Positions 40,412 through 64,000 of a stretch of 64,000 nucleotides of DNA are shown here, piece by piece. The notes under the pieces are model-generated. The model did no database searches, was not told the origin of the DNA, and worked only from the letters and a program-made list of their open reading frames with translations. Where the stretch lies: assembly GCA_003008705.1 (NCBI GenBank), contig PDUO01000011.1:859956-923955 (forward strand), written 5' to 3'. How positions within the stretch are numbered: position 1 is the first letter of the stretch; each line of letters starts with the position of its first letter. The translations under genes were made by a program, and so were the position numbers. The stretch comes from Pezicula radicicola (Eukaryota; Ascomycota; Leotiomycetes; Helotiales; Dermateaceae).

Positions 40412-42229
40412 ATGCGCCAATACAGCATTTTGGGTCTCTTGGCCAGTATTTCTACAATTGTTACTGCCGACGTCACTCCAGTTTCGGTGACTGGCAATGC
40501 CTTCTACGCTGGCAGCGACCGATTTTTCATCCGCGGCGTGGACTATCAGCCAGGTTAGTCTTAATCATCTGCTTCCCGTGGTGTTGTCAGTCTGATAGGA
40601 TTACAGGTGGAGGGACCGGTGTTGTTCAAGACCCTATTGCAGACTCGACAAGTTGCCTACGAGATATTGCACAATTCACAAAGCTAGGCATCAATACGAT
40701 CAGAGTGTAGGTGCTCAATTTCTAGGAACAAAATTACCCCTTTGGGTTCAATTACTTATTTCTCCTGAATCATGTTTAAATTACTCCCAAATTTCTAGAA
40801 CGAGAATACTAACTCCGAGTCAGATACGCCGTAGACAACTCTGCCAATCATGACACCTGCATGAATGCTCTCGCTGCGGCCGGAATCTACCTCGTTCTCG
40901 ATGTCAATACTCCTTTATATTCGATCAACCAAATAGCGCCAGCAACTTCTTATAATTCTGTTTATCTTCAATCTGTGTTTGCAACTATAGATGCCTTCGC
41001 TGGCTATAGTAATACACTTGCATTCTTATCCGGAAACGAAGTCATCAACCAGGCTAGCAATACAGACGCAGCGCCTTATGTGAAGGTATGAAGTGTTGCA
41101 AGCACTTATCTAAGTTCAGAAATTCCAAGACTAACTTTGGGGACTGTTTTAGGCAACAACACGAGATATGAAACAATACATTGGTAGCAGAGGTTACCGG
41201 ACGATTCCAGTGGGCTATGCAGCTGTATGTACTCAAGTCTTTATAGCAATCACCCTTCTAGGAGTGGTCAAGTCACCCCTGAGCTATCTAGAACAAGTAA
41301 ACTAACTGCCGAGTTTTTGACTTAGGCCGATGTCGCGAGCAATCAGCAAGTATTAGCTGAGTATCTGAACTGTGGAACTACTGATCAACGAGCGGACTTT
41401 TACGCCATCAACGACTATTCATGGTGTGATCCATCTTCGTTCACGACCTCCGGATGGGATGTTTTAGTTAAGAACTACACTGGCTATGGAATCCCTCTAT
41501 TGTATGTCTTACCCTCGTTAGACTTGAATTACTTTACTGATCGCTAGCAGTATGAGCGAGTATGGCTGCATTACCAACAACCGTACCTTCCAAGAAGTAG
41601 CTGCTTTGTACTCAACACAAATGACAGATGTTTTCAGTGGTGGACTTGTGTACGAGTACAGTCAGGAAGGAAATGGCTATGGCAAGTGATAATTTAATTT
41701 CTCGTTTTCTGCATTCTTCTAATACATCATAGGTCTCGTTTCGATTTCCGGCCAGACCGTCACAGAAGAACAGGGGTTCACCCTCCTCGAAGCCGCTTTC
41801 AAAAATACTCCTAACCCAAGTGGAACTGGTGGAGCCATGACCACATCTGCGGTCTCAACCTGCCCAACTGCATCCTCCGAATGGCTTGTTCAGAATGACT
41901 CTCTGCCAGCCATCCCATCTGCTGCTGCTAAGTTTATGAGTACTGGAGCGGGTGTGGGTCCAGGTTTGCAGGGCAAGGGGAGTCAGAACTCAGGCGGTGC
42001 TGACACAGGAAGCACTGGGACAGCTACAGCAGGCTCAGGCACAGTCACATCAACGGCCAGTGCGTCAGGAACAAAAGCGACATCGACGTCCAAGTCAACA
42101 TCTACGTCCGGATCGTCTTCGTCGAACTCGACCAGCGGGGCTACGAGACCGCCTACTTCAAATTCAGGGCTGATTGGAACAGTCGCCGTAGCATTGTTGG
42201 GAGTTATGGGTGGCTTTATGGTGCTGTAA
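40412..42229 (+). CDS. GH72 1,3-beta-glucanosyltransferase (Gas/Gel family)
   Basis: GPI-anchored cell-wall enzyme that elongates beta-1,3-glucan. Exons 40412-40553, 40607-40706, 40824-41085, 41153-41224, 41326-41501, 41551-41681 and 41733-42229 give 459 residues. A signal peptide ends near TIVTAD; VTGNAFY...RFFIRGVDYQPGG is the family start. Catalytic acids are in SGNEVIN (Glu153) and MSEYGC (Glu254). There is no Cys-rich X8 module, so it is the short type. A Ser/Thr stalk and hydrophobic tail (GLIGTVAVALLGVMGG) fit GPI anchoring. Two of its six introns (40707-40823 and 41225-41325) belong to the repeated-intron family, and the last (41682-41732) uses a GC donor. Confidence 0.95.
40707..40823 (+). 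mobile_element. introner-like intron 1 (GH72 gene, phase 2)
   Basis: 117-nt intron with blocks TTCAATTACTTATTTCTCCT, GAATCATGTTTAAATTACTC, TCTAGAAC and ATACTAACTCCGAGT that recur in four other introns of the window. Its 3' end is slightly shorter (ends GAGTCAG). Confidence 0.75.
41225..41325 (+). mobile_element. introner-like intron 2 (GH72 gene, phase 0)
   Basis: 101-nt intron whose 3' half (TATCTAGAACAAGTAAACTA then ACTGCCGAGTTTTTGACTTAG) matches the family; the 5' half is diverged, so this looks like an older copy. Confidence 0.65.
41682..41732 (+). other. GC-AG intron
   Basis: The GH72 frame requires a donor GCAAGT after GGC-TAT-G and an acceptor CATCATAG; no GT donor restores the frame. 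GC-AG introns are a known rare class. Confidence 0.8.
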
Positions 42230-42583
42230 TAAATGATATGAAGGTCAACCAGGTGTAGACCAAAAATAGATGTGTATATAAATTACTATTGAAGATTATG
42301 ACCATATCATCTCTGAAGCGTGTTGAAGTGTTCGGAGTATGAAGCCAACTAAGGTTGTGAATGGAAAGCCACTGAAGTGTCCCACGTGATCTCGCAAAGA
42401 CATGCCAAAACAGGAACTATTTGTTATCTCTTCGGGCCTCCTCTTCTCGAGCTCCTCTATCAACCCCACCTTCAAGAGAACTTACAGGCAGCCCAAGGCG
42501 GAAAGTTGGCCAATCTACCTGTATATAGCCATCAATCCATCCTGCCCTTCAATCGTGCAAAATCCCCATTTCCTGTACTCACA
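42230..42583. other. intergenic
   Basis: Spacer between the GH72 and amidase genes; contains a CACGTG at about 42383. No gene. Confidence 0.4.
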
Positions 42584-44585
42584 ATGACGGTAACAACAGC
42601 TTCCGGGGCTTCGTGGGAGGCCGTAGCCAAAGATAGACAGAAGCACCGTGATGCGACCATTGCAGTTGTCGAACCAGCCCTTCCAGATATCTCCGACGTG
42701 CCATTGAATACGATCCCTGTAGCTAAGAAAGTACTAACAGCAGAAGAGATCAAGATTACTGAAACTTCAGTCGAAGTACTTGTGGTCAAGCTTGCAAAAG
42801 CTGAGCTCAGTGCCGTGGAGGTTGCTAAAGCATTTTTACGCAGAGCTGGACTTGCGCAGAAATTAGTATGTAGAGTCTCTACCTCGATCGAATGTAGCTA
42901 ACAGTAATGGAAAATAGACAAACTGTATCACTGAACTCCTCCCTGAACGCGCTCTGAGTCGTGCAGCACAACTCGATAAATACCTTAAGGTGAACGGCAA
43001 GCCCATGGGGCCTCTGCATGGTATTCCTATAAGTGTGAAGGAGCATATGACGATGAAAGGACTTGACATCAATGCTGGATTCATCTCGTGGATTGGGAGA
43101 GTTGGTGAAGATGATGCACATATCTTGAAGATATTATTCTCTGCTGGGTGTATTTTCTACGCGAGGACTACTCAACCCCAGAGTCTGATGCACTTGGAGA
43201 CGAGTAGCAGCATATATGGGTATGGAAATCAAGGATGAATTTGCGGGATATATGCTCATGTAGTACAGCACAACTGTCAACCCATTCAACACTAAGTTAA
43301 CGCCTGGTGGCTCATCCGGAGGCGAGGGAGCTCTGATAGGATTCAGAGGCTCATGTCTAGGAATTGGCACTGACATCGGAGGGTCTATTCGTTCACCTGC
43401 AGCTAATAATGGCGTTTATGGAATGAAACCCACTACACTACGGCTACCGGTTGCAGGCTGGTCGGCCACGATGGCAGGTGCTAATCAAATTATACCCACC
43501 ATTGGACCTTTATCAACAAGTCTCGAAGGATGCAAATTGTTCATCAAAACTCTTATCGATGCTAAGCCATGGTTAAGTGAACCCACGTTGTTACCGTTCG
43601 AATGGAAGGAAGGCGACCCATTTGTTGGCAAGAAGTTAAAGGTAGCAGTTCTATGGGACGATGGGGTTGTAAAGCCTCATCCACCGGTCACGAGAGCACT
43701 GCAACAGGTTGTCGACAAGCTTAAAGCAAAGGCAAATGTAGAAGTGGTTGATTGGACCCCTTACAAGCATGATCTGGTAAGTCCTCGGGCAAATTTGCAC
43801 CTTCTCGGTCCAACTACTTATTCCTAAATTATGTTTGAGTTCCTCACGATAAATATTTAGAATAAGTAAACTAACTCCGAGTTTCTGATTAGGCTTGGAA
43901 TCTTATTGTAGGTTGCCTTTTGTGCCCTGTAGTGGATCATTAGCTGACCAAATCTCAAGGCAAACCTTTACTTCTCTGATGGAGGGACACAAGAATCTGA
44001 CGCTATCGATGCGTCTGGTGAACCTTGGATGCCTCTAAGCAAATATATCATAAAGGAAAACCCACATGTCGAAACGCATACCATATCTTCTCTTTGGGCC
44101 TCACAAGTGCGCCGAGATACATACCAGGCCGAATACGCCGAACAATGGAACAAGACGGCTACGTCAACTGGACCCAATGGAGAACTAGAGGGCATGGTTG
44201 ATGTGATTTTATGCCCAGTAGGACCTGGGTCGGCGCCAAAACTTGAGACTGCGAAATGGTGGGGATACACAAGTCAGTGGAACTTGCTAGATTATCCCGC
44301 ATTGGTATTTCCGGTCGATAAGGTGGACGTGGAGAAGGATGCAGGAAAGGTAGCGTATGAGCCAAGGAATGAGCAGGACGCCTATAACTGGAACCTGTGG
44401 GATGTCGAAGCTTACAAGGATGCGCCCGTTAGCTTGCAACTCGTTGGTCGGAGGTAAGTCACACTACTTATATAGGCGTGGACAATGCTAACGGTTCCTG
44501 GGATAGGTATGAAGACGAGAAGGTCATTCGGGCTCTGGAAATCATAAAGGAGGAGACAGGTTTGCCATTTGTCCAATATGTTTAG
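42584..44585 (+). CDS. amidase (amidase-signature family, acetamidase-like)
   Basis: Hydrolyses amides to acid and ammonia. Exons 42584-42865, 42918-43219, 43269-43776, 43893-43907, 43960-44453 and 44507-44585 give 559 residues in one frame. The catalytic triad is visible: Lys135 in GIPISVKEH, cis-Ser210 in PGGSSGGEG, and nucleophile Ser234 in GTDIGGSIRSPA. The order and length match fungal acetamidases. No signal peptide, so cytosolic. Exon 4 is only 15 nt (AWNLI) and lies between a 116-nt introner-like intron and an ordinary 52-nt intron, which suggests that a single exon was split by intron gain. The preferred amide is not predictable. Confidence 0.94.
43777..43892 (+). mobile_element. introner-like intron 3 (amidase gene, phase 0)
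   Basis: 116 nt. It begins GTAAGTCCTCGGGCAAATTT, carries TGTTTGAGTTCCTCACGATA and ends AAGTAAACTAACTCCGAGTT then TCTGATTAG. It is one of the best-preserved copies. Confidence 0.8.
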
Positions 44586-45034
44586 ATGAATCTACTTGAT
44601 TGAAAGAGAAACTGTACCGTAAAACCTTGCTGTACCTCAGCGAGTCCTGGAGTGGTAAACAAGTTAATGCATTTGTTAGTTTATGCCACGTGACCTCGCT
44701 AACAGACAATAGGAGACAATTGGCATTGAGAGGTGAACAATAGGCTTTCAATGATACACTCTGAATAGTGTCCTATAGAACAAGTCAGTAACAACAATAG
44801 GTAAAATTTGGCATAATGGCAGAGGGAAATCTCAATTGTTCGTTAGTTTTGCTAGGTAGGTACTAAAGAAATTTCTCCAACCCAACTTCTGCTCCTCCTT
44901 TCCTTTCTTTCTTCGAGCCGCCCATATTTCCAACTGGCCCGTAACTTTCTTACCTCCGACATTCTCTTGTAACTTCTTAATTCTCACTTGTCAATAACTC
45001 ACCGCATTTCAAACCAACCTACAAAACCGCCAAG
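44586..45034. other. intergenic
   Basis: Amidase 3' region and promoter of the coiled-coil gene, pyrimidine-rich near 44880-44910. No gene. Confidence 0.4.
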
Positions 45035-45913
45035 ATGGGAGCTACAGCTTCTTTGGTGTTGGACGAGTACCATGCACTCACCGCCGAAATTCACCGAGTT
45101 CGAGCCAGAGATGCGAACAACCAACGCTATATGGACGCCCAGGAGGACCATATACAACAGCTGTATCACCTATTGGCTCAAAAGGATGACGAGTTGGAAG
45201 AACAAGAGGGCCACATCCAGCAACTACATCGCCAGTTGGCCCAGAAGAATGACGAGTTAGATGCAAAGGACGCATTGATCGATGAGCTCAAAGTTCATCT
45301 AAACAAGGTCAGTAAATCCCTGAATTAATTGGTTTAAGTACCTCAGAACTAACCTTGCACAGAAAGAAAAATACAACGATGACAACGAGAAGTACTATGA
45401 CAACGACGCCGATGTAGATATCAGAGCGATGTTGTACCGCGAGGACAACTTTGTCGTAAGTGCAACCTGTGAACTATTAAATTTATCAAAAACTGACTGT
45501 TCAAAGTCACCAGAGGCCGAGGTCAAGAAGGAACCACTCTCTCGCTCTTCTTCTCCCTTACCAACTACTGAGGCCCGTCACACCTCATACGCCTCCTCTC
45601 TCCCCGACCTTGTCACTACTAAACCACCTCCATCACCACCTCATTACTCTCCTACTCCTGCTCCCCGCGACTCTCCCACTCCCTCTTCCTCTTCTCACGC
45701 CTCTCTCACGCCATCTCCTTCGTCGACTTCCTCGCGGAAGAGATGTTCGCCGTCTTCGGACGATCAAAACCAGTTTTTAAAGAGATTGAGAGCTGTAAGT
45801 GCCCCTCTCTTTCCTTTACTGAAATCGAATTTAAATTGACTGTTATTTAGGGCGACAACATCATATACCGAGTCGGCATGGCAACTAGCGGTGTTAATTT
45901 TAACTATGAGTGA
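45035..45913 (+). CDS. coiled-coil protein with possible N-myristoylation signal
   Basis: Exons 45035-45307, 45363-45455, 45507-45794 and 45851-45913 give 238 residues; not recognised. The N-terminus MGATAS fits the M-G-x-x-x-S myristoylation pattern. Residues about 10-95 form a coiled coil with a near-repeated unit (HIQQLYHLLAQKDDELEEQE then HIQQLHRQLAQKNDELDAKD). Then come an acidic stretch (NDDNEKYYDNDADVD), a Ser/Pro-rich region with many SP sites (PPPSPPHYSPTPAPRDSP), and a basic end (FLKRLRA). Three introns split it at phase 0. A membrane-tethered scaffold is a guess. Confidence 0.65.
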
Positions 45914-48146
45914 TTCTCTTCGGGTATGCTTGGCGGTGGTGTCTCCTGATTGGCGGTGTTTTGGAGTTTTATTGATGATTTTTTATGGTTGTTTTTTGCT
46001 TGCTTGCTGATTGGCTTTTGTGCCTTGATTTATGATTGTTTACTTCCGGGTTGGAAGAATGGGATTTGAAATGAAATGAGACTTTGAATTTTCGTCGAAT
46101 CTTTTTATCTTTTTGCTTGGTTGTGATGATTGATCCTTGTGACTTGTGACTTAGTACTTCTCACTTGGCTTCAAGTAGTGTGATGCAAGAACTATTGCTT
46201 CGCTATGGCCTTTTCAGATTATCTCTTTTGTAAGGTAGGCAGCTTGTGGTGACAGGTGCAATGACCACCTTTGGGTAACTTCGAAAAACGGGTCGAGCTA
46301 AGCAGATGATGAGCTCTGCTTTAGAGGTCGTAGGAATTGGTAGGACTCTACGAAGGACAAATTCATAAGTAATGGCCCTGGTCCAAGCGTTTTTACTACA
46401 GAATGTACCGATTTTGGTGAGGAAACGCTTGGACCAGGGCCATTACTTATGAATTTGTCCTTCGTAAAGGAGTTTTATGAATCCGCCGATGTAAAATTTA
46501 AGTGTGGGGTCATAATCTAATGCGATAGGAGAGGATATAATCAATCTTTGAGTTCGTTATACTCCTTTGTGAAAAGTGAAAATTGAAAATATGCCAAGAA
46601 CTGCGGAAAAGCAAAGTATGTACAGCACATCAACTCGGCAGTTCGAATCCGCTATTGCCATCAGACAAGTTCCGACTCGCTCGTGAAATGGATCTCGACT
46701 TACCGAATGCTTTCCCCACGATCAACAGACACTAAATTCTTGAATCGTCCAATATATTTGCAACTCTGAATCTGGGGATCTGGGGAAGAGGATCCTCTTT
46801 GCTCGTTTGTTAGTGAAGGTATTCACATGTTGCCGAGGGCAACGAGCACTCTTTAAAGGGGTTCGGTAAAATGGAGGGGGCTTATCAACGATTGGCAGGT
46901 ACAGGGGTGGACTACTCTATCTCTACCTCATCCTATCTTTGAGTGCACTTTCTCTCTCGTCCTCTCTTTTCCTCCTTCCCGTATCGCGACACCGCAGAAG
47001 GTATCACCAAGGCGTCCTTGACATAAAAAAAAAAGGTTCGCCTGTCATCGACTCAAGAGCATCATCCAGCTTGGCTCCTCCATTGGCTAGAATGCGAAGC
47101 ACAAAAAGAAATGAGGCAAAAGGCTATAGCCAGGGTGTCGCTAAGTACTTCGTAATTACAAGACAGAAATACCGACACCCAACGAAGATCGCTTTCTTGG
47201 ACTCGGCCTTTCCGCCTATCCCGGACAGCTACCCCAGCTACCGTTGCAATTCGCTGCACGAAACGCGGGGATCCTGGGGCGTTTTCAGCGTTGAACAGGG
47301 CCAAGCTTCCTATTTCGATATCAACCCCGGCGGCGCCTCGGTACGTTAGGGATTAGCGCTCCCTTCGCCATCGTCTGATTTGACATCTGATTGCTATGGG
47401 GTCCTCAATTGCTGAAATTTGGAAATTTGGATCCCTGGTCACCAGCAGAGGACACCCCGGCGTGGGGGAGGCGAAGTAGGGAGAACTTTGGAAAAGGAGA
47501 ATACGAAGAGGAGAGAAAAGCTTCGTTCTTTGAATTGAGCTTGAAGGACTCAGAGAGATCTGCGTGGACGATGGATATTTGTTAATAGGTGAGAAGAATC
47601 GCGATGACGATGCACTTTCTTCCATTTTCGGTACCTTTTCTCTGCATGCGCCCAGGTCGATGCGCATCCAGGAACATCGCGCAACCTTCCCTTTCTCGCG
47701 CCTCCTTATCAATCGCTCATTTCGCAAGCTGCACAGCTGCAGTCAAGCTTGTCCTTGTTTTGTGGGTTGTATGGCGTGCAAGGAAAAGAATCACATGTTG
47801 TACTAGCTCGGCGATGTATCCCCAAACGGGGCCTTGGGCGTCATAATGGGAGCTACTCCAGCTTGGTGCCATAACCAGGTAAACTTTCTCTTTTTTTTTC
47901 CCGCGCACACACAAAACTCCTCAATCCTTGATCTTCCCAGACACTTCCCTCCATACATCCTACATCATCCTACATCTCCGCACAACTTTCACTCGTTCTT
48001 TTACCCATCTTCGTTTCTCACCCCGCATTTTGTAAGACAACCCCCCGGCGTGGTGGTTTGCCATAATTATAATATCTCTGTATTCCTTCTAATACTCTTT
48101 TTTGTTTGCTTCCTCACAGTTGTTCTTCAAAGACAATCTCACCAAA
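45914..48146. other. long intergenic with perfect hairpin
   Basis: Contains the 44-bp inverted repeat described separately. The open frames at 46939-47349 (+) and 47353-47727 (-) have no family signal; the first starts at TTG. A 5'-leader intron of the DUF3712 gene (GTAAAC at 47879 to CTCACAG at 48119) is possible. Confidence 0.5.
46349..46466. repeat. perfect 44-bp inverted repeat with 30-nt spacer
   Basis: The left arm 46349-46392 starts TACGAAGGACAAATTCATAA and the right arm 46423-46466 is its exact reverse complement, 44 of 44 bases. The spacer is 46393-46422. No gene overlaps it. Confidence 0.97.
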
Positions 48147-49291
48147 ATGGACTCCTCCTCGGACGACAAGAAGGCGGCCACCACTGCCCAAGTCGAGAGT
48201 GGCTCCTACTCAGAGGCCAAACCCAGCGGCTTTCAGAAGGCAAAGAGACATTGTGCAAGATGGTGGTGGGTTCACCTCATCATCTTCTGTTCCTGCTTCC
48301 TGATCATCTGCCTCTGCCTGTAAGACCCCCTCACTCCTCTCAAAATCGGCATTCTCTAATAGCCTCGCAGCATCTACGTCTACATGCCAAAGAAGGCCCA
48401 GCATGACGTCAACGCCTCATCCCTCAGCTTCACCGATCTGCAGTTCCTAAACCCTACAACAGACGCCATTACCCTGACACAGAAAGGTATCTTGCACAGT
48501 CCCAGCCACTTCACACCAACACTAGACTCCTTCAACGCCTCACTCTGGCTTGTCACAAATGGTGTCTTTGGTGCCGTTCCATTCGTGAACATCGAGATGC
48601 CTAGAATCCACGCACTTCACGGAGACTCAAATGTCTCTGTGATTGGCCAGGTTGTTACTGTCTTGGATCAAAGCCAATTGTCCCAGTACGCTATCCAGGT
48701 GCTTGACCAGCAGAATGTTACTACTGCGCTCACTGGAAAGACGAAGTTGCATCTGGGAGGCTTGCCTAGTACAACAGTCCACTACAACGAATCGAGCACT
48801 TATTCGAGTAAGTTATATTTCTCACCATAATGAAAAATCAAAGAAAGAAACCGGAGGAGAACTGACAGGAATAAACAGCGCTCAACGGTCTGGCTGGCTT
48901 CAACGTAACCGATGCCAAGATCAACCTCACTGCCCTGACTGGTCCCAACTTCTCCGGCAATGCCTATATCCCTAACCCATCCATTATGACCGTCGCATTG
49001 GGTAACGTAACCCTCACCCTCTCGACTGCCATCGCTGGAGTTGTAGGAAACGCAACTATCAACGACTTGACCATCGTACCCGGGGACAACAACTTCCCTA
49101 TGACCGCAACCATCAACCAGACTTTGGTTATCAACAGCATGGACACAACGACGGGAAATGTTGATTTGATGATCACAGGCAACAACGCTGTATACAATGG
49201 CCAGGTTTTGCCATACTACGTTGATGCGTTGAAGAGCAACGTCTTGAACCTCACCATGAACGTGCAACAAATCATCAAGGACAGTCTCTAA
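48147..49291 (+). CDS. DUF3712-type membrane protein
   Basis: Exons 48147-48319, 48371-48807 and 48879-49291 give 340 residues. A polar cytosolic head (1-37) precedes one membrane helix (about 40-62, WWWVHLIIFCSCFLIICLCL), then a long extracellular or luminal part rich in N-glycosylation sites (NVT, NLT, NAT, NQT). The beta-rich pattern (PFVNIEMPRIHALHGDSNVS; LGNVTLTL; NDLTIVPGDNNFPMTATIN) is that of the DUF3712 group, a family of fungal membrane proteins related in style to plant LEA-2 folds. Function unknown; a cell-surface or vacuolar role is inference. Confidence 0.85.
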
Positions 49292-49671
49292 ATCCTACGT
49301 CCTTGAAGGACGTTGAGGGCGATGTATATCAGCATATGGGAGTTGAGAGTCAACTGGCATTGGATATGGATATACGGAGGTATTGCTTGGGGGTGTTTTG
49401 ATTTTATGTTGTTTTCTTGAGAGGTGGAATTTTGATACCCATCTTTATCTGAACTCGTAGAATGGCATTCCTTCAACCTTTTAACTCAACTGACCAGGTT
49501 TTTCCTTGGCGGATATTCCTTTTTAGCATAATTTGGCTTGGTTTTGTGCGAGTTGTTGCGTGCGATGTTACAGCGAATTGAGTTGTACACGTTTTAAAAT
49601 GACTGAAGAATTTGAAATATACTAACCTTAGAATGCTATAGATTAGCTAATATTCTTTGTTTCTCAACTAG

Positions 49672-49725
49672 CTCAAGTCTTAATCCGAGCAACTCACTTA
49701 TTTTAAGCAACTCACTCTACTAAAC
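49672..49725. repeat. degenerate tandem repeat, copy 3 (inverted orientation)
   Basis: On the minus strand: GAGTGAGTTGCTTAAAATAA then GTGAGTTGCTCGG, the same unit type as near 19030. Confidence 0.5.
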
Positions 49726-49877
49726 CTCAAAAGCCTAGATGCAATAATTCTTGTTACCTTCTAACAAAACCATCTACATCAACAGTCTAGCATTTCTAGT
49801 AAGGAAACCAGAGATCAGAGATAAGAGATTTCTCTTCCAGAATAAAACAGAGAGCAAATCTCATTTTGAGGATTTTA

Positions 49878-50841: not shown

Positions 50842-52094
50842 CTACAAATCAGCCCTGGCCTCCTCGCCCGCCCAAGCCCTTCGCAACAACTCCTTAATAG
50901 GCCTCTTCTCGATGGCCCTCGGATTCCAATATGGATTCCCAACCGCAATCTCAGCAGCCTTATCAACATCCTCCTCCTTGAACCCAAAATCCTTCAAGCC
51001 CCTTTTAACTTTCAACTGCGTCAACAGCACATTCAGACCTTTGATAGCATCGCCATCACTACCGGGTAAGACCGATGCTAGCTTAGCCATTACTTCAGGG
51101 ATCGCTGGAGCATTGTAAGCAAGGGCGTGAGGAAGGATAATGGTATGGGTTTCGGCGTGTGGCATGTTGAAAGAGCCGCCGAGTGTGTGGCAGAGTTTGT
51201 GGTGAAGCGACATGCCCACGGCGCCTAGACAGGTTCCGCACTAAAATCAGAAACTCGGGGTTAGTTTACTTGTTCTAGACATTACCGGGAGTAACTCAAA
51301 CATTATTCAGGAGCAATGAGTAAATTAACCTAGAAGAGGCAAATTTACTCCGAGAACTTGGAGACTTACTAGCCAAGCACCGTAGAGGGCCGAGGAGCGG
51401 GCGTTAGGGTCCGAGGGATTGTTGATAATTTGAGGTAGGGAGGTCGATAAGGCTTTCGTGCCTTCGAGAGCTAGGAGGTTGATGATTGGGTTTGTGTTGC
51501 GGGCGTATAGAGCCTCGACTGATTGGATTAAGCAGAGTATCAAGAAGTAGAAGAGGAGGACTAACCTGCATGTGCAACGGCATTCACACCACTCGTAGCA
51601 CTCATTGATGCTGGTAAAGTCATTGTCAAGTCCACATCATAGATGACTGTCCCAGGTAAGATCTTAGGATCACTCCTCGTCGTCTTCTTCCCATCCTCCG
51701 TCTCCCCCAGTATAGGTGTCATTTCTGAGCCTGCGTAAGTAGTTGGGATACAGATATGTGGCAAACCGGTCCTGATGCTAATTGCCTTTCCAAGACCAAT
51801 CGTACTTCCACCTCCTATGGATATCACGGAATCTGCTTTAACAGATGTAGCATAGGAAAGTGCTTGGTCGGTAATGTGGGTTGGGGTGTGCATGGTGGCC
51901 TGAGTGAAGATTCCTGCAACTTTGCCATTGAGGAGGCTAGAGAGCTGGTTCACTTGATCGACCTGTTGAGGTGTAGAGAGGAGGAGGGGAGCTGTGAGCT
52001 TCTGTCGTGCTATCTCGTCGGAGAGCTTGGAGAGGGTGCCTGTGCCAAAAATGACCCGGGCTGGGGCTGCGTTGTATTCAAAGGCATCGACCAT
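50842..52094 (-). CDS. iron-containing alcohol dehydrogenase, maleylacetate-reductase type
   Basis: NAD(P)H-dependent reductase of the Fe-ADH superfamily; the closest style is maleylacetate reductase, the last step that feeds aromatic ring-cleavage products into central metabolism. Exons 52094-51566, 51518-51370 and 51240-50842 give 358 residues, the usual length. It shows ISIGGGSTIGLGKA (dinucleotide binding), CIPTTYAGSEMTPI, SGVNAVAHAVEALYA (first metal-site segment), and MSLHHKLCHTLGG with PHAETHTIILPH (metal histidines). Intron 2 (51369-51241) is an introner-like copy inserted at phase 0 just before CGTCLGAVGMSLHH. The substrate is inferred. Confidence 0.92.
51241..51369 (-). mobile_element. 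introner-like intron 4 (Fe-ADH gene, phase 0)
   Basis: 129 nt, read on the minus strand: GTAAGTCTCCAAGTTCTCGG, then TTACTCATTGCTCCTGAATA, ATGTTTGAGTTACTCCCGG, TCTAGAACAAGTAAACTAAC and CCCGAGTTTCTGATTTTAG. Well preserved; it shows that the family inserts on either genomic strand but in sense with the gene. Confidence 0.8.
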
Positions 52095-54373: not shown

Positions 54374-56216
54374 TTAGTAATACAACGCCTGCTGCCACCA
54401 CTCACACCTGCTCGATCCAATATCATCCATCGCCAACGCAATTGATTGAGATTTAAAGTTAACAATTGTGTTCTCGTTGCCATATCTCGGTATTGTTGGG
54501 AGCCCATTTCCAGATGGCACACCATTGATACCAAAGCTCGTCACGTAGTCTTGGAGGGCAGTAGCGATAGTATTGTTGAAGGCGCTCGTTGCTCCGTTCA
54601 TAAAGAGGTAAGGTGTGTCGAGACCGTGTATTACTGGTGGGACGCTGAACCCATCTGAGGGTGTTAGTACATTCTCCAAGAGTAAAAGATAGAGGTAGAG
54701 CCAGACTTACAAGCAAAGGTTTCATTATGATATGCACGGTTAAGGTAAGCAGTATTGCAGATGAAGGGTGAGTTGGCAACGGTTATCACAGCTCTCTGGC
54801 ATTCTGTTGTATATCCATACGTCCCGTTAAAAGTTGGCGGATAAAGTGTTGTCGTAATGTAATTAAGCATATCGGATGAGATACGCGGGAATGACAACTG
54901 AATATATCGTGCATAGGAGCCGACGAGTCGATTTGCGGACTTGTAATAATCAAACCTTCATCCGAGTTATGCGCGACTATCCTGGTCGAAGCGACCTTCG
55001 AGAAGAAGTTGACCAGGAAGTGAGGGTACGAATGTACCATCGACAACAGGCCCGTACGTATTAGTGCCGTAAGTGGAGTTCCATACATGAAGGGCGTTCG
55101 CAGCGATGAGAACTTCCGAGGGAAGTTGGCGGGCTTCTTCAACATCAAGTATGTTTAAAAAAATTTGAAATATAGCCTCTTGGGTATCCAGAGAGGGCTG
55201 AGGGCCAAAAGCCGGGGATTGGACTATGGCTTGGGAAAACGGCACGCTACCTTCTTGGCCCCTAAACGCAGTGATCAGGTGTAGAATGGAGCCGCCCCCG
55301 GCCAACTGACCCATTACAGTCACTCTATCTTTATTATCTCCAAAAAGGTGTATGTTCTCCATCAATTCCAAAGCCAATCTCTGGTCGTAAAGCCCAACGT
55401 TGACAGTGCCATCTTCTTGGAGACTGGGACCCGAAAGCCAGCCAAAGGCCGAGACAATAATTGATAGCAACGTAAACCACACCATCTTCACCGACGTTGA
55501 TTAATCCAGCAGGATCAAATGAAGCCCCAGTTACGCCAGTCGTTGTGCCTGATGTGTACCCACCGCTGAAGATCTATAAAGAATAGTTAGTATGACAATT
55601 CTGTCTCGCTGGGTCCAATCGACGGCTTACCCAGACTAGTACTGGCGCATCACAGACTGGAGATTCGAAGATCTGCTTAGGTATGAAGACATTCAGAAAT
55701 AGACAGTCCTCACTTGTTCTCTGGTCATATGTCGAATCATCAGGCGTTGAAGGCAGGGCTTCTGCTGCGGCTGTGTAGTTGAAAGAGGCAGCTGAGCCTG
55801 TCAAATAGTAAAGGACGAATTCGGTTGCTATTGTTTTCCATGACCCGGCCGCTTGCGGGCATATTTTGGTAATGGAGCCGTTATTGATGACAGAGCTTCG
55901 TCCAGTTTGTGGTAAAGGTTCTGAATCGCAGGTTTCCCATAGGTGGTTAGGCATATCGGATGTTTGAGAAGTTGTAGAAGTTTCCTGTTTGCTAGAAGAA
56001 CTTTATCAGAGGCTAATTAAGAAATTAAGAGACTAACATTGAAGCTGATTGCTTAATGGCGTTCCTGAAAACTGTTAGCCAGGTTTGCGGAGGACTACAG
56101 CATACACATACATATCCAAGGTCGACAATAGGCAGGGTGGAGTTCGAGAACATGGCTTGGACTTGGAAAACAAGAACACAGACAATTGTAAAGGGAAAAG
56201 TGACCATAATGACCAT
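54374..56216 (-). pseudogene. decayed type-B carboxylesterase
   Basis: A secreted type-B carboxylesterase/lipase once. A signal peptide (MVIMVTFPFTIVCVLVFQVQ) and family segments survive in changing frames: NFYNFSNIRYA, EDCLFLNVFIPK, PVLVW, WLSGPSLQEDG, VGLYDQRLALELMENI, AHNSDEGLI, QLSFPRISSDM. Damage: TAA at 56053-56055 and at 55947-55949, frame changes near 55900, 55450, 54978 and 54910. The nucleophile elbow, normally G-E-S-A-G, reads G-Q-L-A-G (55297-55311), so the catalytic Ser is gone. Introns are still recognisable (for example GTAAGC at about 55633). It cannot encode an active esterase. Confidence 0.88.
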
Positions 56217-56799
56217 TGTGATAGAAAGTCAAAGAGATGGTAAAGGAGGGTTGCAAAGAAACTACTGGATCTTTCAGAGTATTTATGGTCTCTGGTACTA
56301 AAGAGGGCCAGCATTGGCAATTCAACCCCTTTGCGCTTCATTTCAATCGAGTGAAGCGACGAGTCACCACTTGATGGACATAGAAGCTTCATCAATAAGC
56401 CGACATTGGTACAAGGAAAGCAGTAAGACATCTCACAATCAACGTGGTAGTAAGGATGGCCTTGAGTTTTGCGGGGTGTGCATTGTGGGGTCGAAGCGAG
56501 CTTCGGATTTTGTCTAAATCAAGTATAGTTTACGACGTCCATCCGTAGACCGCACTGTTTCTGCAGATCATGCTTGAAATACGCGTGCTCGGGGCTGAAT
56601 ATGCTCAATTTACCTATATTATTGTAGAGTGGAGGGCTGAAATGCCCAAGACCGTCGCACCGGTTCGCCGTCTTGTCCACCACGTGTGGGATATTTCCGT
56701 CCTTAACGTTTGACAGGTGTAAAGGGGCCAAGAATGTGAGGATGATCTTCGAAATGAGCAATTCCTCAACCCGCAAATGGACCAAACCTACAAACTGCT

Positions 56800-57800
56800 A
56801 GACGTTTTCAGACCAGCCCACTTGTTGCTTGGAATAGATCAAAAAGCACTGAAACTCAAAGCCGACATTCGCAGCAACGATGCTAACCGTGCTTCGTCCC
56901 CATTCTTTCGCCCACCAGTAATGGCGTATTGTGTGTAGAGTGACAGCCCAGTGTGCCAGGAGAACCAGCGAGCTTGGGTCGTGCTCCCAAGTGTCTTGAT
57001 ATAGGCTGCCGAGACCATGCCCGGCCACATCAGGACAAAGCTGGCAACACTGGGGTGTGCAGCCGAGCGTCGTGATGTTTTAATGAGCTTGGAGATGACC
57101 AGCCTATAAAGAGCTTTTTTCCTTTCATCCTTCAGTCCCGCAATTTTCGATATCTCCAAAATATTCAATGAGGCCTCTGCCTCCTGAGCAGGTATCTCTT
57201 CCAATTGTGAAAGTTCTCCTGGCTTTCGTGACTAGATATCAAAGAGAATGATTAGGAAGTGTATAATGATAGTGTAACATCTCGGAATCGTTATCCGAAT
57301 CAAAAGGAAGATATACAGAAATGGTGGAGCAAGGATCTGGTTGGCTAAAAGGACCAACACAGTCTCTTGGGCGGGAAGACCTTGGGCTAACGATGAACTG
57401 TAGCTGGCGTTGTGGGTGCAATGGTTTCAACTGTATTTCGTGTTGCCTACCCGACTGGGTAGCCAAGTGATTGTATTTACATTGCGACTTGTTACTCTTG
57501 GAGCATCGAGAGCAGCTAAGCTGTATTGACAACAGCCATGACGCGAGTTTGTATGTGATCGGCGGGGGGGGGGGGGGACCTAAAGAGGCTGGAGGCTTTG
57601 AGTTGAGAAGACTTCTGTGGCTAGTAGTAACAAAAGCAGGTAGCTGATGAGATCGGCATTTATGCTGAGACGACGCAAGTTTATCAATCTACGAAAAGGA
57701 GGCGGCAAAGCTCGCTTACTACGAGCCTGGGTTTCAACGACAAAACAAGAAGGACAGGAGGGGTTTTGGTGGGGCATCACTTACCTCAAATGCCCGATAA
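56800..57800 (-). pseudogene. decayed zinc-cluster (Zn2Cys6) transcription factor
   Basis: Pieces of a fungal C6 regulator on the minus strand. 57500 region: SCSRCSKSNKSQCKY, like the second half of a Zn2Cys6 finger. About 57245-57285: DNDSEMLHYHYTLPNHSLFD, like the start of the regulatory domain. About 56840-57000: DPSSLVLLAHWAVTLHTIRH then WWAKEWGR, the conserved C-terminal element. These lie in different frames with stops between (a shift near 57005), and the first finger half is not found. It sits next to the decayed esterase, suggesting that the block lost function together. Confidence 0.6.
57564..57577. repeat. poly-G run (14 G)
   Basis: Uninterrupted G tract; it could be length-variable or a sequencing weak spot. 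Confidence 0.9.
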
Positions 57801-58120
57801 GTCTATTAAGCTCACAAAACGAAGTCTTTTAGGCAACCCTTTCACCTGTGCCATGATATGTGTACAGTAGTAGGCTGAGAAAGCTGGCCGGTAAGGTTGA
57901 ACGTGTTTTGGGGATTGGACGCTCATCCGTTGCCTTATCAAGACTTTGAGCGTGCACTAGCACAGATATACTTCGTAATTCCACCTACATCTTAGCCATA
58001 CTTATGATTCGGTGAACAAACTCGGACTATGTGGTGACAGCGTAAAGTTGACTTGTGTAGTGTGAATCGCGGTTGGCTGTACTTGTTGTAAGAGGTAACG
58101 GTCAAAAAGTACATTGTAGA

Positions 58121-59197
58121 CTATAATTTCTCTGACGACCCATATATGTTCGGATTCCTAGGAGGAAGGACAGATGCACCCACAGGATGTTGTCGTGCCC
58201 AAGCCGCCATCTCTTGATCCTCTCTAAACCTCCGCTCTCTTCTTAGGAAGTCTTGGTCAGAGAGTAGATCTGCTTCTTCCTCGTCTGCAAGCCAGTCTCT
58301 TACTTCGTCGCGTTCGGTAGCCCATCTTGCCCGGGTCCGTCTCATATAACGATGCATTCTGTGAGCCATGGGCCACAGAGTAACGCCGGCCACCACCGTA
58401 ATAAATATCATAAACCGAGTAAAGCCGATTGTTTCACATAGGATACTCCACCGCTTTACCAATAGGTGCCTCAGTGACCCAAGTCTTCCGTACTCGTCGA
58501 AATCCTGCCTCGAAACATATCTGTACCATGGCGGCTGTGCTAAATCAGCACACCGATATGTCCATAATCCGCACTTCCGAGATTTGTAGATAGGTGGCGA
58601 TTCGTCAGAGGGTCGATTCGAAAGCCATATTTTGACAATTTCAAACGAAGACTCTTTCTTATTTCGTGATAGCGGAAATGAGTTCGAGTCTTTGAGCTGT
58701 ATTCCAATGATCTTTTGAGTGCCAGCTCCTAAGATATCAAGTGTCAAAATAGGGTGATAGTTATCGTATTTGACCGAACGATCGTCGCGTGGATAAACCT
58801 CACGATCATAATCAAAGCTGAATGGTGGCAGCTTGCTATTCGGACCAGGCGGAGCAAATTCGTCTGCGGGGACTTGGTAGGCTTCGAGGAGTGGAGGGAT
58901 TGAGTCGTATGCAAAGGGTAAGAATGGTTGACCTTGAATGAGCAATGCGCTGTGGTCGTGTGAGAGTGTAAAATTGATAATAACTGCGCTGGGTTTCTCA
59001 GTAGGTGAGATGGCTTCCTTTCCCTGGTTCCAGACGTAGAGAGGAATATTAGGGGTCTCCAATCGCACGAGGACACTGCGGTCTATGTCAAGCCATTTTA
59101 TATCATCGTTGATATCATTTGGATTCGGAACGCGTGTCGAGTTTACTGAAGCAGCGGAGACGTAGAAGACAAGAAACAACAAAGAAAACAAAATCAT
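58121..59197 (-). CDS. type I membrane protein of unknown function
   Basis: Intronless, 358 residues. A signal peptide (MILFSLLFLVFYVSAAS) is followed by a luminal domain with LETPNIPLYVWNQGKEAI, SLKYDNYHPILTL-like strands and two close Cys (KCGLWTYRCADLA). There is one membrane helix near residues 265-285 (FMIFITVVAGVTLWPMAH), then a charged cytosolic tail (RRTRARWATERDEVRDWLAD). I am reminded of a conserved fungal ER/secretory family (DUF7728-like) but cannot confirm it. Frame, start and both hydrophobic segments are coherent. Function not predictable. Confidence 0.75.
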   Translation of the reverse strand: MILFSLLFLVFYVSAASVNSTRVPNPNDINDDIKWLDIDRSVLVRLETPNIPLYVWNQGKEAISPTEKPSAVIINFTLSHDHSALLIQGQPFLPFAYDSIPPLLEAYQVPADEFAPPGPNSKLPPFSFDYDREVYPRDDRSVKYDNYHPILTLDILGAGTQKIIGIQLKDSNSFPLSRNKKESSFEIVKIWLSNRPSDESPPIYKSRKCGLWTYRCADLAQPPWYRYVSRQDFDEYGRLGSLRHLLVKRWSILCETIGFTRFMIFITVVAGVTLWPMAHRMHRYMRRTRARWATERDEVRDWLADEEEADLLSDQDFLRRERRFREDQEMAAWARQHPVGASVLPPRNPNIYGSSEKL

Positions 59198-60600
59198 CGT
59201 TACTGCAGTGACATTACGAGTATGATCAACAAAATGAATATGAAGAACAGTATTCTAGAGTAGAATGTATGTTAAGAAAGATGCAAGGTATTGAGTGAGC
59301 GTGGCGGGGCAGTTAGGGGAATAGCTTCAAGCACCATGCTACTACTAGGCCCAATTAAGCCTAGCCTTATACTACTCGAGAGTCTTCTTCCTCGAGTAAT
59401 TCCACAGTCAGCAGGCCACCAACTCATTAGCAATAAGCTCTAAGTCTAATAACTACCTAGCAGTCCCAGCTACGAGGAAATTCCTCTGACTAATCTTTTG
59501 GTCCATTAGCTTACTAGGTTACAAGCCCTGTTTGAAAGGTGCCTTCCTGTCTGTTTATGGCGAGGTGGAAAAACATTAGATCAACAGAAGCAAATGCCTT
59601 CTCATTCACTAGCTGTGGCAGCTCCTGAACATACTGAGGATGATTGATGAACATTGGCATAGTTGTCATGTGCCATGCAGTTGTTAAATACCTAATGATC
59701 AGACAAAAGAGAAGCCAGATAATCCAGCAAACAAAGCTACGTACGTCTCCTACTGATATTTTCCCCCTAAACTCTCGTAGGAAGATCTTTCACTTCTGCT
59801 TTATCTAGCAATAAGATGCTAGTTTAACTAGTAATCTCGTTGGGAGCAAAGCATTGTTTCTAGATGCTATTACAATTTAGTTACAGTTGAGATCTTCCGT
59901 CTACTAATAGACGGCGGAAAGGTCCAATCAACATTACCTCATTTCCAGGCATTTCTTCGTTGTGAGCAAAGTAGCCGTGGAGTCATCTGAGCTACGTAGA
60001 TTGAAAAGGCATACTGTCCTAGCAGATTTCTGTCACGTTTTTATAGGAGTGATCAAGTAGCTAATAAATCCTAGAATGTGTTCCCGACCACCTCTAGGTC
60101 TCTAAGGTCTCCTGGCATGATTGCTTCCTTACCATTTGCTCCTATCCATCGCTCATTCAACTACCGGGTACTTCTCTGGGGAGCCCCACCTGCGGCTGAG
60201 AGGTCTTCTATGGTGTCAAAAGCACTCTATTTGCGCTCATGAAATCTAGGATTCAATCTTTCCACTAGGTTCTACTAACGCTTTTCCTATCTCTTTCATC
60301 TAATAATGGTTCCAACGGACGTCTAACGAGCTTTCATTCTGAGGTGGCCCCACCTTGTTGTATAACAAGATACGTTTAATTGACCAACGATTGTAGTAGG
60401 TTTTTTTTCTATTTCTGGAAATTTCGCTCGGAACTCTTTAGTACAAGAGGGTATATTTAATCGCTCCCAAACACCGCTGGATGGTCAGAAACACACTCTG
60501 GACAATTTCTGGAACTAATCAACGCCATGCCAACATCAGAAACGAAAGACGATACCAAGCCCCTGGCATCTCCAACGTCAATTGCCTGGATAGCTCTCGA
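59198..60600. other. AT-rich intergenic, no gene seen
   Basis: No coding frame recognised. The 60457-60654 minus-strand open frame is antisense to the relic downstream. Confidence 0.4.
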
Positions 60601-60639
60601 ACGCGATATTGACACCATTTCGAAATATCCGATTAGCGG

Positions 60640-62520
60640 ATCACGATCATGCACATTTTGGGGATGCTGTCAGCGACAACCACTATAATGGTAAGGATTT
60701 CTAAAATTAAATTATAGGCAAAATGAACTAATTAAAAGATACCCAAGCTGTCACGAATTTGGAACCGCCGCGAAACTGTTTTCTAGTTCCTTTTGAAAGA
60801 GAACAAGACTTCACAGGAAGAGAAGATGTACTCTCGGGTATTCATAAAGAATTCGAAGGGAACCGCACACTTGCTCTCACAGGAATAGGAGGTGTAGGGT
60901 AAGTTTCGAGCCATCTTGTAGGTCTTCGCTTCAGACATAAGACGTTAGAAAGTCTGGCAACTTGGATTTTGATGGGGACATGGCGCTACTATTGGGTTTC
61001 TCTGTCATTGAACAAGAGAACAAATCAACAGTGTACAACATTCACCGACTCGTTCAGGTTGCTGTCAATGCATGGCTAAGTAATGATGAGACCACCCAGT
61101 CGAAGGCTTGTGCTGTAAGAATTGTTGCAGTCAAGTTTGTTGCAGTCAACTTTCAGGACGAATCATCCAACTCATGGGAAATGTGCTCTGCCATTTTACC
61201 ACACGTACAAGCCGTCCTCAATTATGAGCCCGTACTAGGAGAGGCGCCGGAACTATGGGAGCAATACTCTATAACTGTGGATATTTCTACAGGATGAGAA
61301 ATGAAAAAGAAGCTGCCAAAGGAAAGATACTTGCGGCTTTCAATGTCTCTCATGCATTTCAGGGCGAGAACCATCGCTTTACATTACTCTGCGCAAGAAC
61401 TCTGGGTCAATTGGAGTTTGCACTTGGGGAATATGACAACGCTTTAAATTTTGTCATGTGGGCGCTTCAAAGATATGAGCAAACTCTAGCGCCGGATCAC
61501 GAGGAAAGAATCAGCATTCAACGGGAGGTATCTAATGTTCTGTCGGGCATGGGAAGATACGATGAGGCTTCAATATCCATGCAAAAGGTTGTTGACTCGT
61601 ATGAGAAGACCTATGGACCCGACCATTCAAAAACATTAACTGCTTCTGTACGGCTTGGCCTAGGATTTGTGTACCCAGGCTCACCACAACTTGGAAAATC
61701 CGAGACAATATGCAGACTGGCACTTGGAAGTTTTGAGCGCACGCTCAGATCTGGTCACTTTGACACGGTACGGGCTGTTGATGCCCTTGGTCGAGTTCTG
61801 GAAGCTCAAGGGAATACAGAAGAGGCAGAAGAGCTTTTTCGTCGCGCACTAGAAGTGACCGAGAAATCGCTGGGCAGATTACATCCTACCACATTGGATG
61901 CTACCTACACGCTCGCCAAGGCGTTGCACCTAAATTCCAAGGATGGAGAATCTGAACAGGTTCATCGAGCGACGATTAAAAGCAAAGCTACTATCTTTGG
62001 TGCAGAAAATCCCAGCACCTTGTGGAGTGAGTTATTTTTTGCAGCCTTTTTAGTAGATACTGGGCGCACAGATGAAGCCATCCCTCTCTTTGAAAAGTCG
62101 ATTTCTGGCCTGAAGGAAGCAATCGGTAAATCCCCCGGAATTCAACATGTTGGAAAAATCATTGCTCCCTATCGCCAGATACTGATGAGCCATAGCGTCG
62201 CTCTAGAAGACATTCCGAGAGACATCAGAACGGTAGCAGCTCTTTATGACCAAGCCGAAGAGGCAGTAGGGAAGGACAAGAAAGAGAAGGATTCTAAAGC
62301 TTCGGCGCCCACTGAGACTCGACGACCAACCCCGAGCGAATATTGTCAGAACAAACAAAAGTTACCAAAGTTGGAGGCCGACGTACGGGAAAGGGATGCA
62401 GGAAGTGAAAGTGATCGGATTGGAATTTTCAGAAGTCGTGGGTTCACTGAAGAACTATGGGCACAGATAATGGGCAATGGAGATGCATGGTACTCCATTT
62501 GTGGCGGAAGTGAGATTTAG
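60640..62520 (+). pseudogene. NB-ARC/TPR (STAND, NLR-like) gene with NB domain deleted
   Basis: Exon 60739-60898 encodes CFLVPFEREQDFTGREDVL and LALTGIGGVG; after a 50-nt intron (60899-60948) the exon starts KS, completing the P-loop GIGGVGKS, but then jumps straight to LDFDGDMALLLGFSVIEQEN and IHRLVQVAVNAWLS, the winged-helix end of NB-ARC. Walker B and sensor regions, some 200 or more residues, are missing. Near 61250 the frame shifts (ELWEQYS / GAILYNCGYF). After this 421 codons stay open with about five TPR units (EGDKAL-type; SLGRLHPTTLDATYTLAKAL). Upstream, HFGDAVSDNHYN ends at a donor at 60690. STAND proteins trigger fungal non-self responses; this copy cannot bind NTP normally. Confidence 0.75.
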
Positions 62521-63487
62521 CCTATCTTAGACTTGTAAGGTAGATCTATAGTCCTAGAAAGAGAGTGATCCTGTCCAGACACTTAGAGTGAGGGCGAGAT
62601 TGTGCGACACCCCTCGCCCACTAAAATATACCCAATTGAACGACGATCGATCTCTTTACCGACTCCATCAATGCTTAGCTACCGTACGAATTGGTCTATA
62701 AGAGATTATTGTAATCAGGGAAAGTGAGTTACCCAAAGTCAAGTGAGTTACCCAAAGTCAAGTGAGTTACTCAAATCAAGTAAGTTATTCAAATTCATCT
62801 CTTATGTCTGAATGGATAAGTATTGTTGAATTCGGTGAATATATGGGAATAGTCATGAGACAGTCCCCCATAAGTAGGTCCATTCTGGCACTCTAGCTTC
62901 CACACAGAACACAAAACACAATACAGCTACTTTGCCACCACATGTTGCTGCTGTCCAAATAACCTTCCCATTCAACAAGTATTAAAAATAATCTCTTATA
63001 ATCCCAATTCTTACAATACATCTCTTATCATCCAATGCCCGAAGCTTAATGACTTCGTATAATGCAATTCCAAGTATCTGGGACCTAGTGTTTTTGTATC
63101 CACCAAAATTAACTTACATACAAAAGAACTAATTCTTAACGCCAGCCTTTAAATCCATTATTTCTAGTATTATCCTTAAATTCTTTGATCATTAAGTTCA
63201 GCCAACGCCACACCATCATACCATTGGCTAAGCCAACGACGTTGCCGGACTTACTCGGATTTAGTACACAAGGACACCTCAAAACCCACATTATCAGTTC
63301 CCAATAATCTAAAGTCCGCGGCAAGGAGAACATAAACTCCAGTTACAGTTTAAATATTAGACTAAGCAAGAGGTATAAATAACAGACTTGAGAACGTATT
63401 TAATTTCTTAATCATTCTTGAAAATAAAACCGAGAAAGACAAACATTTCAAATCAAAGAAAGCAGTTTTTAAAAAATACACACTAAA
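62521..63487. other. intergenic, SDR promoter region
   Basis: Contains copy 4 of the dispersed tandem repeat (62721-62795). A 65-codon ATG frame at 63136-63333 (-) is open but unassigned. Confidence 0.45.
62721..62795. repeat. tandem repeat, copy 4 (best preserved)
   Basis: Four units of 18-19 bp: AAGTGAGTTACCCAAAGTC twice identically, then AAGTGAGTTACTCAAATC and AAGTAAGTTATTCAAATTC. Confidence 0.85.
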
Positions 63488-64000
63488 ATGGCTCCACAAA
63501 AGACAGTAGTTCTCATCACCGGTAGGTTAACACCCTATCGATATTATAAAAGAGCAGAGATTGATAGCGTATTCTAGGTGCGAATAGTGGAGTGGGATTT
63601 GAATCAGCAGTTGCGATTGCAGCGGATTCTAAAGACTATCACGTTATCGTCGGGTCACGGTCAATCGAAAAAGGCCGAGAAGCAATTGCGGAACTTGGAA
63701 AGAGGAATCTAAAAGGTTCATTCTCGTTGCTTCAGCTTGATGTCACAGACGAGCCCGGCGTTGCGAAAGCCACCGAGACCGTAGAGAAGGAATTCGGCAA
63801 ACTTGATGTCCTCATTAATAATGCTGTAAGTTTCTAGTCCGTCGGAGCAAATTCGTCCTTGCCAGGTTCAATTTACTTATTCCTTCTGAATCATCTTATG
63901 TTACTCTCGATATACCTAGAACACGTAAGCTAAGTCCGAGTTTCTGGCTATAGGGAATTATTGTCAACGGAGACATCGCTCTCAGCGACCAAGTGCGAAA
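63488..64000 (+). CDS. short-chain dehydrogenase/reductase, 5' part
   Basis: Partial at the window end. Exons 63488-63521, 63578-63825 and 63954 onward. The nucleotide-binding TGANSGVG (residues 11-18), then VIVGSRSIEKGREA with Arg suited to NADP(H), LQLDVTD, and LDVLINNAG are classic SDR landmarks. The third exon continues IIVNGDIALSDQVR. The catalytic Tyr-x3-Lys lies beyond the window. The NNAG motif is split exactly between Ala and Gly by the 128-nt introner-like intron. The substrate cannot be told. Confidence 0.92.
63826..63953 (+). mobile_element. introner-like intron 5 (SDR gene, phase 0)
   Basis: 128 nt. Blocks: CGGAGCAAATTCGTCCTTG, TTCAATTTACTTATTCCTTC, TGAATCATCTTATGTTACTC, CTAGAACACGTAAGCTAAGT, CCGAGTTTCTGGCTATAG. 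The best overall match to copies 3 and 4. Confidence 0.8.

Follow-up and report, generated by a model that had tools for sequence, protein, structure and literature searches.

Five introns in a 64,000-nucleotide stretch of the Pezicula radicicola genome (GenBank assembly GCA_003008705.1, contig PDUO01000011.1, positions 859,956 to 923,955 of the forward strand; hereafter the window) almost certainly form one family of introner-like elements, which we designate F1. The introns, I1 through I5, lie in four unrelated genes, and further copies of the family were found elsewhere in the genome (61.04 Mb in 152 contigs). The genome carries at least three introner-like families, F1, F2 and F3. The mode of their spread is narrowed, not proven; they have probably spread through spliced intron RNA.

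Five related introns in four unrelated genes

The five introns and their host genes in the window are as follows.

40707..40823, plus strand: I1, F1 introner-like intron, 117 nt, in the GH72 gene after residue 80, phase 2
41225..41325, plus strand: I2, F1 introner-like intron, 101 nt, the most diverged, in the GH72 gene after residue 192, phase 0
43777..43892, plus strand: I3, F1 introner-like intron, 116 nt, in the amidase gene after residue 364, phase 0
43893..43907, plus strand: 15-nt exon of the amidase gene, between I3 and an ordinary 52-nt intron (43908-43959)
51241..51369, minus strand: I4, F1 introner-like intron, 129 nt, in the iron-containing alcohol dehydrogenase (Fe-ADH)/maleylacetate reductase-like gene after residue 226, phase 0
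63826..63953, plus strand: I5, F1 introner-like intron, 128 nt, in the short-chain dehydrogenase (SDR) gene between NNA and GI, phase 0
40412..41685, plus strand: host GH72 glucanosyltransferase, exons to residue 296 (Pfam PF03198, E = 5.5e-120; aligned with PDB 8pe1)
42584..44454, plus strand: host amidase, start and main exons (Pfam PF01425; aligned with PDB 8wv2 and 6kvr)
50842..52094, minus strand: host iron-containing alcohol dehydrogenase or maleylacetate reductase-like protein (Pfam PF00465 and PF25137; aligned with PDB 3jzd)
63488..64000, plus strand: host short-chain dehydrogenase, extending past the window end (Pfam PF00106, adh_short; aligned with PDB 5o98)

All five introns have GT...AG ends, and a preliminary description of the window had their coordinates right. 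It had also claimed that the introns have sequence in common although their hosts are unrelated. This was borne out by the four different Pfam families of the spliced hosts (GH72, Amidase, Fe-ADH and adh_short) and by pairwise BLAST, the independent measure of likeness among the five. Within the window, the six pairs among I1, I3, I4 and I5 matched at E values of 3e-10 to 2e-21. I2, the shortest, has an alignment gap in its middle; its E values were 7e-7 to 2e-6 against I4 and I3, about 1e-4 against I5, and no better than 0.013-0.016 against I1. The likeness is not confined to donor, branch site and acceptor, the outcome that the preliminary description had named as fatal to its proposal: the five can be aligned over their full length, from donor through acceptor and beyond the splice signals. 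A profile made from them recovered each in the window (E = 6.6e-19 to 7.6e-36), values that measure alignability only and not independent detection, since the five were the training set. The same profile search found no sixth copy in the window.

Removal of the introns restored uninterrupted proteins. The GH72 protein aligned without a gap to PDB 8pe1 at the I1 and I2 junctions, as did the amidase to 8wv2 and 6kvr at the I3 junction, the Fe-ADH protein to 3jzd at the I4 junction (YGAWL/CGT) and the SDR protein to 5o98 at the I5 junction (NNA/GI). The greater length of the five, also remarked on earlier, was confirmed: in the models of the GH72, amidase and SDR genes, eight ordinary introns measured 46-67 nt, against 101-129 nt for I1-I5. 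The last ordinary intron of the GH72 gene (47 nt) is a tentative model, as is the frame downstream of it.

Copies across the genome and their placement in coding sequence

When the genome was searched by BLAST with I4, at least 41 matches were found (the best 40 of 153 candidates were scored), the closest of them 95% identical to it. A 28-nt F1 core around the branch site occurred 141 times at up to 3 mismatches, while its reversed control never occurred; the additional copies that the preliminary description had called for are thus present. Two other F1 patterns gave the same picture: a 32-nt pattern from the 5′ end of the youngest subgroup occurred 12 times and a 33-nt internal pattern 27 times, each with a control of 0. 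A profile of 46 copies had 114 distinct matches in the window and 116 loci, the 46 included, and 83 of these were near full length. Ninety-six matches started near the 5′ end, and in 89 of them the donor and the acceptor could both be located. These 89 copies had a median length of 128 nt, and nearest-neighbor identity among F1 copies reached 0.985. Longer variants of 142-164 nt were seen at L037:2483-2624 (minus strand), L043:1846-2009 (minus strand), L057:1395-1538 and L096:321-483; the L037 variant has a repeated GAGTTACTCCC block.

The F1 loci were selected either for similarity or for a match to the 3′ core pattern; 47 listed places lie outside the sample, and 41 of the 141 core matches are not on the list. 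Among 23 F1 matches that were not the center of a fetched stretch (window and partial copies included), the 28-mer fits 9 at up to 3 mismatches. These numbers suggest a few hundred F1 copies in the genome, a figure that is rough because the copies are clustered.

The placement of the copies was analyzed with a codon model, built from 69 long open reading frames and run outward from each splice junction. The sense score exceeded the antisense score in 83 of the 89 copies, and the best reading frame was continuous across the splice in 76. As the threshold for the coding signal was raised, continuity was seen in 58 of 63, 46 of 48 and 31 of 31 copies, all of which scored higher in sense. Copies that were both sense and frame-consistent made up 65%, 52% and 35% of the 89 at the three thresholds. 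In a control of 3000 points drawn at random from the window, with the strand also random, the proportions were 18%, 13% and 9.6%. The 76 frame-consistent copies were spread over the three phases (27 in phase 0, 28 in phase 1 and 21 in phase 2), and 75 of them would bring an in-frame stop if retained unspliced. The smaller sets of the other two families behaved in the same way. For F2, the frame was kept in 20 of 26 copies (17 of 18 strong ones) and sense exceeded antisense in 25 of 26; for F3, the corresponding figures were 10 of 13 (7 of 8 strong ones) and 11 of 13.

Among the restored host proteins were a pyruvate carboxylase, a molybdopterin dehydrogenase FAD domain, an MFS transporter, a permease and a helicase. 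Nine of ten host pieces submitted to Pfam matched a family.

Comparison within the GH72 family suggested that two of the window introns are gains. Four GH72 paralogs from the same genome (L117-L120), 46-71% identical, are uninterrupted at both sites. They read INT-I/V-RVY or NTIRVY at the I1 site, and GY-S/A-A-ADV in three paralogs and GYATNDD in L120 at the I2 site. An ordinary intron near residue 250 is present in three of the four. From these paralogs of one gene, with two sites, I1 and I2 appear to have been gained and not to be ancestral. The preliminary description had proposed an introner-like family, and the proposal agrees with what was found: a dispersed, intron-sized unit at unrelated coding sites, mostly in sense, with empty sites in the fetched paralogs. 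Its claim of recent common descent stands for the family as a whole. The window copies, however, are diverged, except I4, and the five are not one another's nearest relatives.

Several genes or loci hold more than one copy and a few hosts fall within one protein family, for example L021 and L075, which are related at the protein level. Could the elements then be ordinary introns that are alike through duplicated genes, gene conversion or shared splice signals? We give this explanation next to no chance. The likeness extends over the whole intron, and when flanks were compared with flanks, the strong matches inspected turned out to be further introner copies. In none of 12 F1 pairs was the partner at the same locus the nearest relative; its rank was between 2 and 61 of 88, and 22 or lower in the list in ten of the pairs. 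Gene duplication as the source of F1 was ruled out by the flank comparison together with these ranks. We also noted a 54-nt match between two flanks of locus L028.

Insertion sites and the mode of spread

The flank comparison of F1 loci also brought out the families F2 and F3. F2 elements are about 118 nt long and have the form GTAAGCAACATATTTC...TTTGTTGAAG. At least 40 F2 matches were found in the genome (the best 40 of 80 candidates were scored), and a pattern search gave 87 matches against 1 in the control. Copying has been recent, with 7 of 26 aligned copies having a neighbor 99.2% identical. F3 elements are about 167 nt long, with 36 matches (all 36 candidates were scored). The 3′ halves of F1 and F3 are weakly similar (nhmmer, E = 3.2e-5 at best), while an F2 profile had no match among the F1 copies. 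There is no clear F2 or F3 copy in the window, where the best F2 score had an E value of 0.048 and F3 gave no score. The loci are as follows.

L125-L144: examples of F2 copies; KGG (K = G or T) opens the downstream exon in most young copies
L121-L124, L145-L152 and L019: F3 copies, mostly with GTTCGT donors

In one of these loci, L139 (G000:C61:698880-699297), the F2 element lies within a histone-H3-tail-like sequence (RTK/QTARRSTGGKAPRKQLASKAP); the predicted protein is unusual in other respects.

Target-site duplications were looked for by comparing the bases at equal offsets from the left and right junctions with those of reshuffled pairs. None was found for F1 (89 copies, 50 offsets), where no position reached a z score of 3 and the highest was 2.6, or for F2 (26 copies, 40 offsets; highest z, 1.9). 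For F3 (13 copies, 40 offsets), the highest z was 1.5, and AG upstream of the element is compatible with a duplication of 2 nt. At the invariant splice letters, where reshuffling is powerless, raw identity between left and right was used instead. It was 0.25-0.63 in F1 and 0.04-0.31 in F2; a fresh duplication would give about 1. Duplications of 3-9 bp, as in introners of the DNA-transposon type, were thus not seen in F1 and F2. Erosion does not explain their absence from F2, since 14 of the 26 copies are at least 94% identical to the query.

Each family showed its own bases around the insertion point. In 77 F1 copies (12 under 70 bits were excluded), T was at position −2 in 35, G or T at −1 in 57, and G at +1 in 47 (p = 9e-15 against the exonic background). 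In F2, G or T was at +1 in 22 of 26 copies, G at +2 in 20 (p = 1e-9) and G at +3 in 14; the 14 young copies had these bases in 14, 13 and 10 cases, respectively. No upstream preference was significant in the 26 F2 copies. AG or AGC stood directly upstream in 8 of 13 F3 copies, a statistically weak excess. The base at +1 differed among families (p = 7.5e-4 for F1 and F2, 1.9e-6 for F1 and F3, and 1.2e-3 for F2 and F3, by chi-square with small counts and several positions tested).

Selection for splicing may account for part of the F1 pattern. The F2 pattern, AAG and then TGG, is not what splicing is known to favor. In the permease gene of L131, the F2 site has a tryptophan codon and PDB 9eyd has a tryptophan at the matching place, so that there the target is older than the insertion. 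In F3, the acceptor could come from a 2-nt AG duplication. A bolder reading, of rather low probability, is that each family recognizes its own target at insertion: KGG following the site in F2, G mostly following it in F1, often with T at −2, and AG or AGC often preceding it in F3. If so, the RNA or its carrier would pick sites by sequence, for example through exon pairing in a spliceosome that runs backward, and the insertion of ascomycete introners would not be random.

Predicted RNA folds of F1 copies tended to be better at higher scores. Compared with dinucleotide shuffles (89 copies of 95-170 nt), the 19 copies with at least 120 bits had a mean z of −2.2, while the lower-scoring groups had means of −0.8 to −1.0 (trend with score, rho = −0.35, p = 7e-4). 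In the window, z was −0.78 for I1, +0.73 for I2, −3.03 for I3, −1.15 for I4 and −0.01 for I5. The folds of young F1 copies show interrupted complementarity between the two halves. A hairpin that is present in young copies and decays afterwards is plausible.

We propose that the elements are mobile U2-type introns, of about 128 nt in F1, each of which carries a donor, a branch site and an acceptor of its own. They would insert seamlessly into protein-coding exons, in sense orientation, and so would be spliced out, leaving the host protein unchanged. Most simply, the spliced intron RNA would be inserted by reverse splicing, either into a transcript or, at a transcribed locus, into the coding strand, and reverse transcription or repair would follow. 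After insertion, a copy would drift away from the family sequence and the family fold. What the sequence gives directly is a repeat unit that equals the intron, many copies spread over different genes, a mostly sense position in exons, empty sites in the paralogs of one gene, no detected target-site duplication in F1 and F2, three or more families, and recent copying of F2.

It seems unlikely that the source is non-autonomous DNA transposons with ends that double as splice sites, the prevalent introner type outside ascomycetes, which would insert with no or very short duplications and be moved by an enzyme encoded elsewhere. A family-specific target is typical of enzyme-guided insertion, the AG or AGC in front of F3 together with the AG at the element end is as expected from a 2-nt duplication supplying the acceptor, and the complementary halves of young F1 copies would also fit. 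However, F1 and F2 lack a duplication even in near-identical copies, and few copies are without a sense coding signal. Alternatively, intron RNA or its cDNA could be captured as filler during double-strand break repair in transcribed genes, as has been proposed for the symmetrical stwintrons of Hypoxylaceae (PMC8469720). Seamless insertion without duplication, the hairpin-like young copies and the clustering in certain loci (below) are all in line with such capture. It predicts neither the KGG preference of the young F2 copies nor the strong sense bias, and we consider it quite improbable.

Several observations weigh against spread through spliced RNA or against the evidence used for it. A family-specific target preference is no obvious prediction of reverse splicing. 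RNAalifold gave zero consensus pairs over 46 F1 copies, so a conserved fold is not claimed, and four of the five window copies (z from −1.15 to +0.73) were indistinct from shuffles. The F1 sample is not random because of the way its copies were picked. The loci that trained the codon model were also those tested, and the coding test has little force for some of the F1 set: 13 of the 89 copies were not frame-consistent, and 6 did not score higher in sense, with 4 clearly antisense and 2 lacking a coding signal. The sense bias itself can stem from purifying selection, and random insertion into DNA is countered only by the scarcity of clearly non-coding copies. Finally, we infer splicing of the elements in the cell from reading frames and homologs.

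Clustering, tiny exons and known systems

The density of copies in the window, which the preliminary description had called high, belongs to a wider clustering. Of 52 three-kb loci centered on an F1 copy, 17 held a further copy. These 17 loci gave 24 extra hits, or about 22 elements (14 F1, 7 F2 and 1 F3) after adjacent split hits in L011 and L037 were joined, and 21 of the 22 or so lie on the same strand as the center copy. An even spread of an assumed 350 copies would give 0.9 extra copies, a figure that restriction to genes would raise somewhat. That the same-locus partner was never the nearest relative points to separate arrivals.

Where elements have come to lie side by side, exons of a few nucleotides are predicted between them. 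In L002 (G000:C3:195470-198598, gene on the minus strand), an F1 element (196970-197098) and an F2 element (about 196847-196968) are separated by one base. The host is an M1 aminopeptidase (PF01433), and its reading HGAMENWGLVTYR needs this single T; with it, the alignment to the puromycin-sensitive aminopeptidase 9o5k is free of gaps. The predicted 1-nt exon falls in the GAMEN motif of the enzyme. Three further F1 or F2 matches were seen at the same locus. In L058/L074 (G000:C64:464700-464960), a ferric reductase gene (PF01794) contains two F1 elements with 5 nt between them, and the frame is open over 221 codons only when the 5-nt exon GTATG is kept. In the transporter-like gene of L003 (G000:C66:458409-461537), an F1 element is followed by a 6-nt exon and an ordinary 48-nt intron. 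The frame is open; the exon is only likely, since omission of 6 nt also keeps the frame.

Fungal introns are short and are recognized as units, so such exons could be joined by removing one intron at a time. To judge from these gene models, side-by-side insertion may carve an exon down to a single nucleotide.

Apart from the elements, matches to the 5.8S rRNA model were noted at C78:235929-236079 (77.5 bits), C68:327433-327591 (46.7) and C140:39835-39889 (41.4, below the cut-off). The two weaker ones may be degenerate copies.

Introner-like elements are known in Dothideomycetes (PMC4457414), and a review describes fungal elements as found only co-linear with transcribed DNA, with stable folds predicted (PMC3443670). 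A survey found introners in 175 of 3,325 genomes, with the ascomycete families as an outlier that lacks target-site duplications and terminal inverted repeats (PMC9860276). The movement of ascomycete introners is an unsolved question; published accounts assign it to reverse splicing largely for want of the marks of DNA transposons. In the literature searched for introners in Leotiomycetes and Helotiales and for introner microexons, which leaves most subscription journals outside, no paper describes this case, to judge by titles and the opening of abstracts.

The Pezicula families have most of the testable defining features of fungal introner-like elements. Like the Dothideomycetes elements, they consist of near-identical introns that sit in unrelated genes, exceed ordinary introns in length and fall into several families per genome; they are co-linear with genes, and there are signs of recent activity in some families (PMC4457414, PMC3443670). 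The Dothideomycetes elements are free of transposon hallmarks and have predicted folds that degenerate with age; F1 and F2 likewise show no target-site duplication, and a fold that decays may be shared. By description, the Pezicula families differ in the target preference of each family and in the predicted 1-nt exon between two families. DNA-transposon-type introners are likewise non-autonomous repeated introns with splice sites and insertion preferences (PMC9860276), whereas F1 and F2 have no detected target-site duplication.

The Hypoxylaceae sister stwintrons and cropped sister introns also proliferate, insert seamlessly without duplication and have complementary halves (PMC8469720). Their inverted repeats are 45-55 nt long, while the complementarity here is short and interrupted, and their authors report no flanking-exon pattern, in contrast to that seen here. 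We considered whether F1 elements could be [D1,2] stwintrons, with a G|GU start, an internal intron that splits the donor and two-step splicing. This was rejected: one-step removal of a single GT...AG unit keeps the frame, no nested internal intron is needed, and G precedes the donor in only 28 of 77 copies.

In Arabidopsis, the APC11 gene has a single-nucleotide exon; as in L002, this 1-nt internal exon is needed for the protein (PMC4674806). Here the host is a fungus, both flanking introns are introner-like and come from two families, and the exon is a prediction from sequence. If confirmed by RNA, it would mean that intron birth can yield 1-nt exons, easily missed by annotation.

There is good support for regarding these families as a new set of introner-like elements of the type known from ascomycetes. 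The three families differ in age, one of them has 99% identical copies, and with the empty paralog sites and the family-specific target sequences they make a direct test bed for mechanisms. Against these known systems, what is unexpected to a specialist is the family-specific target sequence and the predicted 1-nt exon between two mobile introns.

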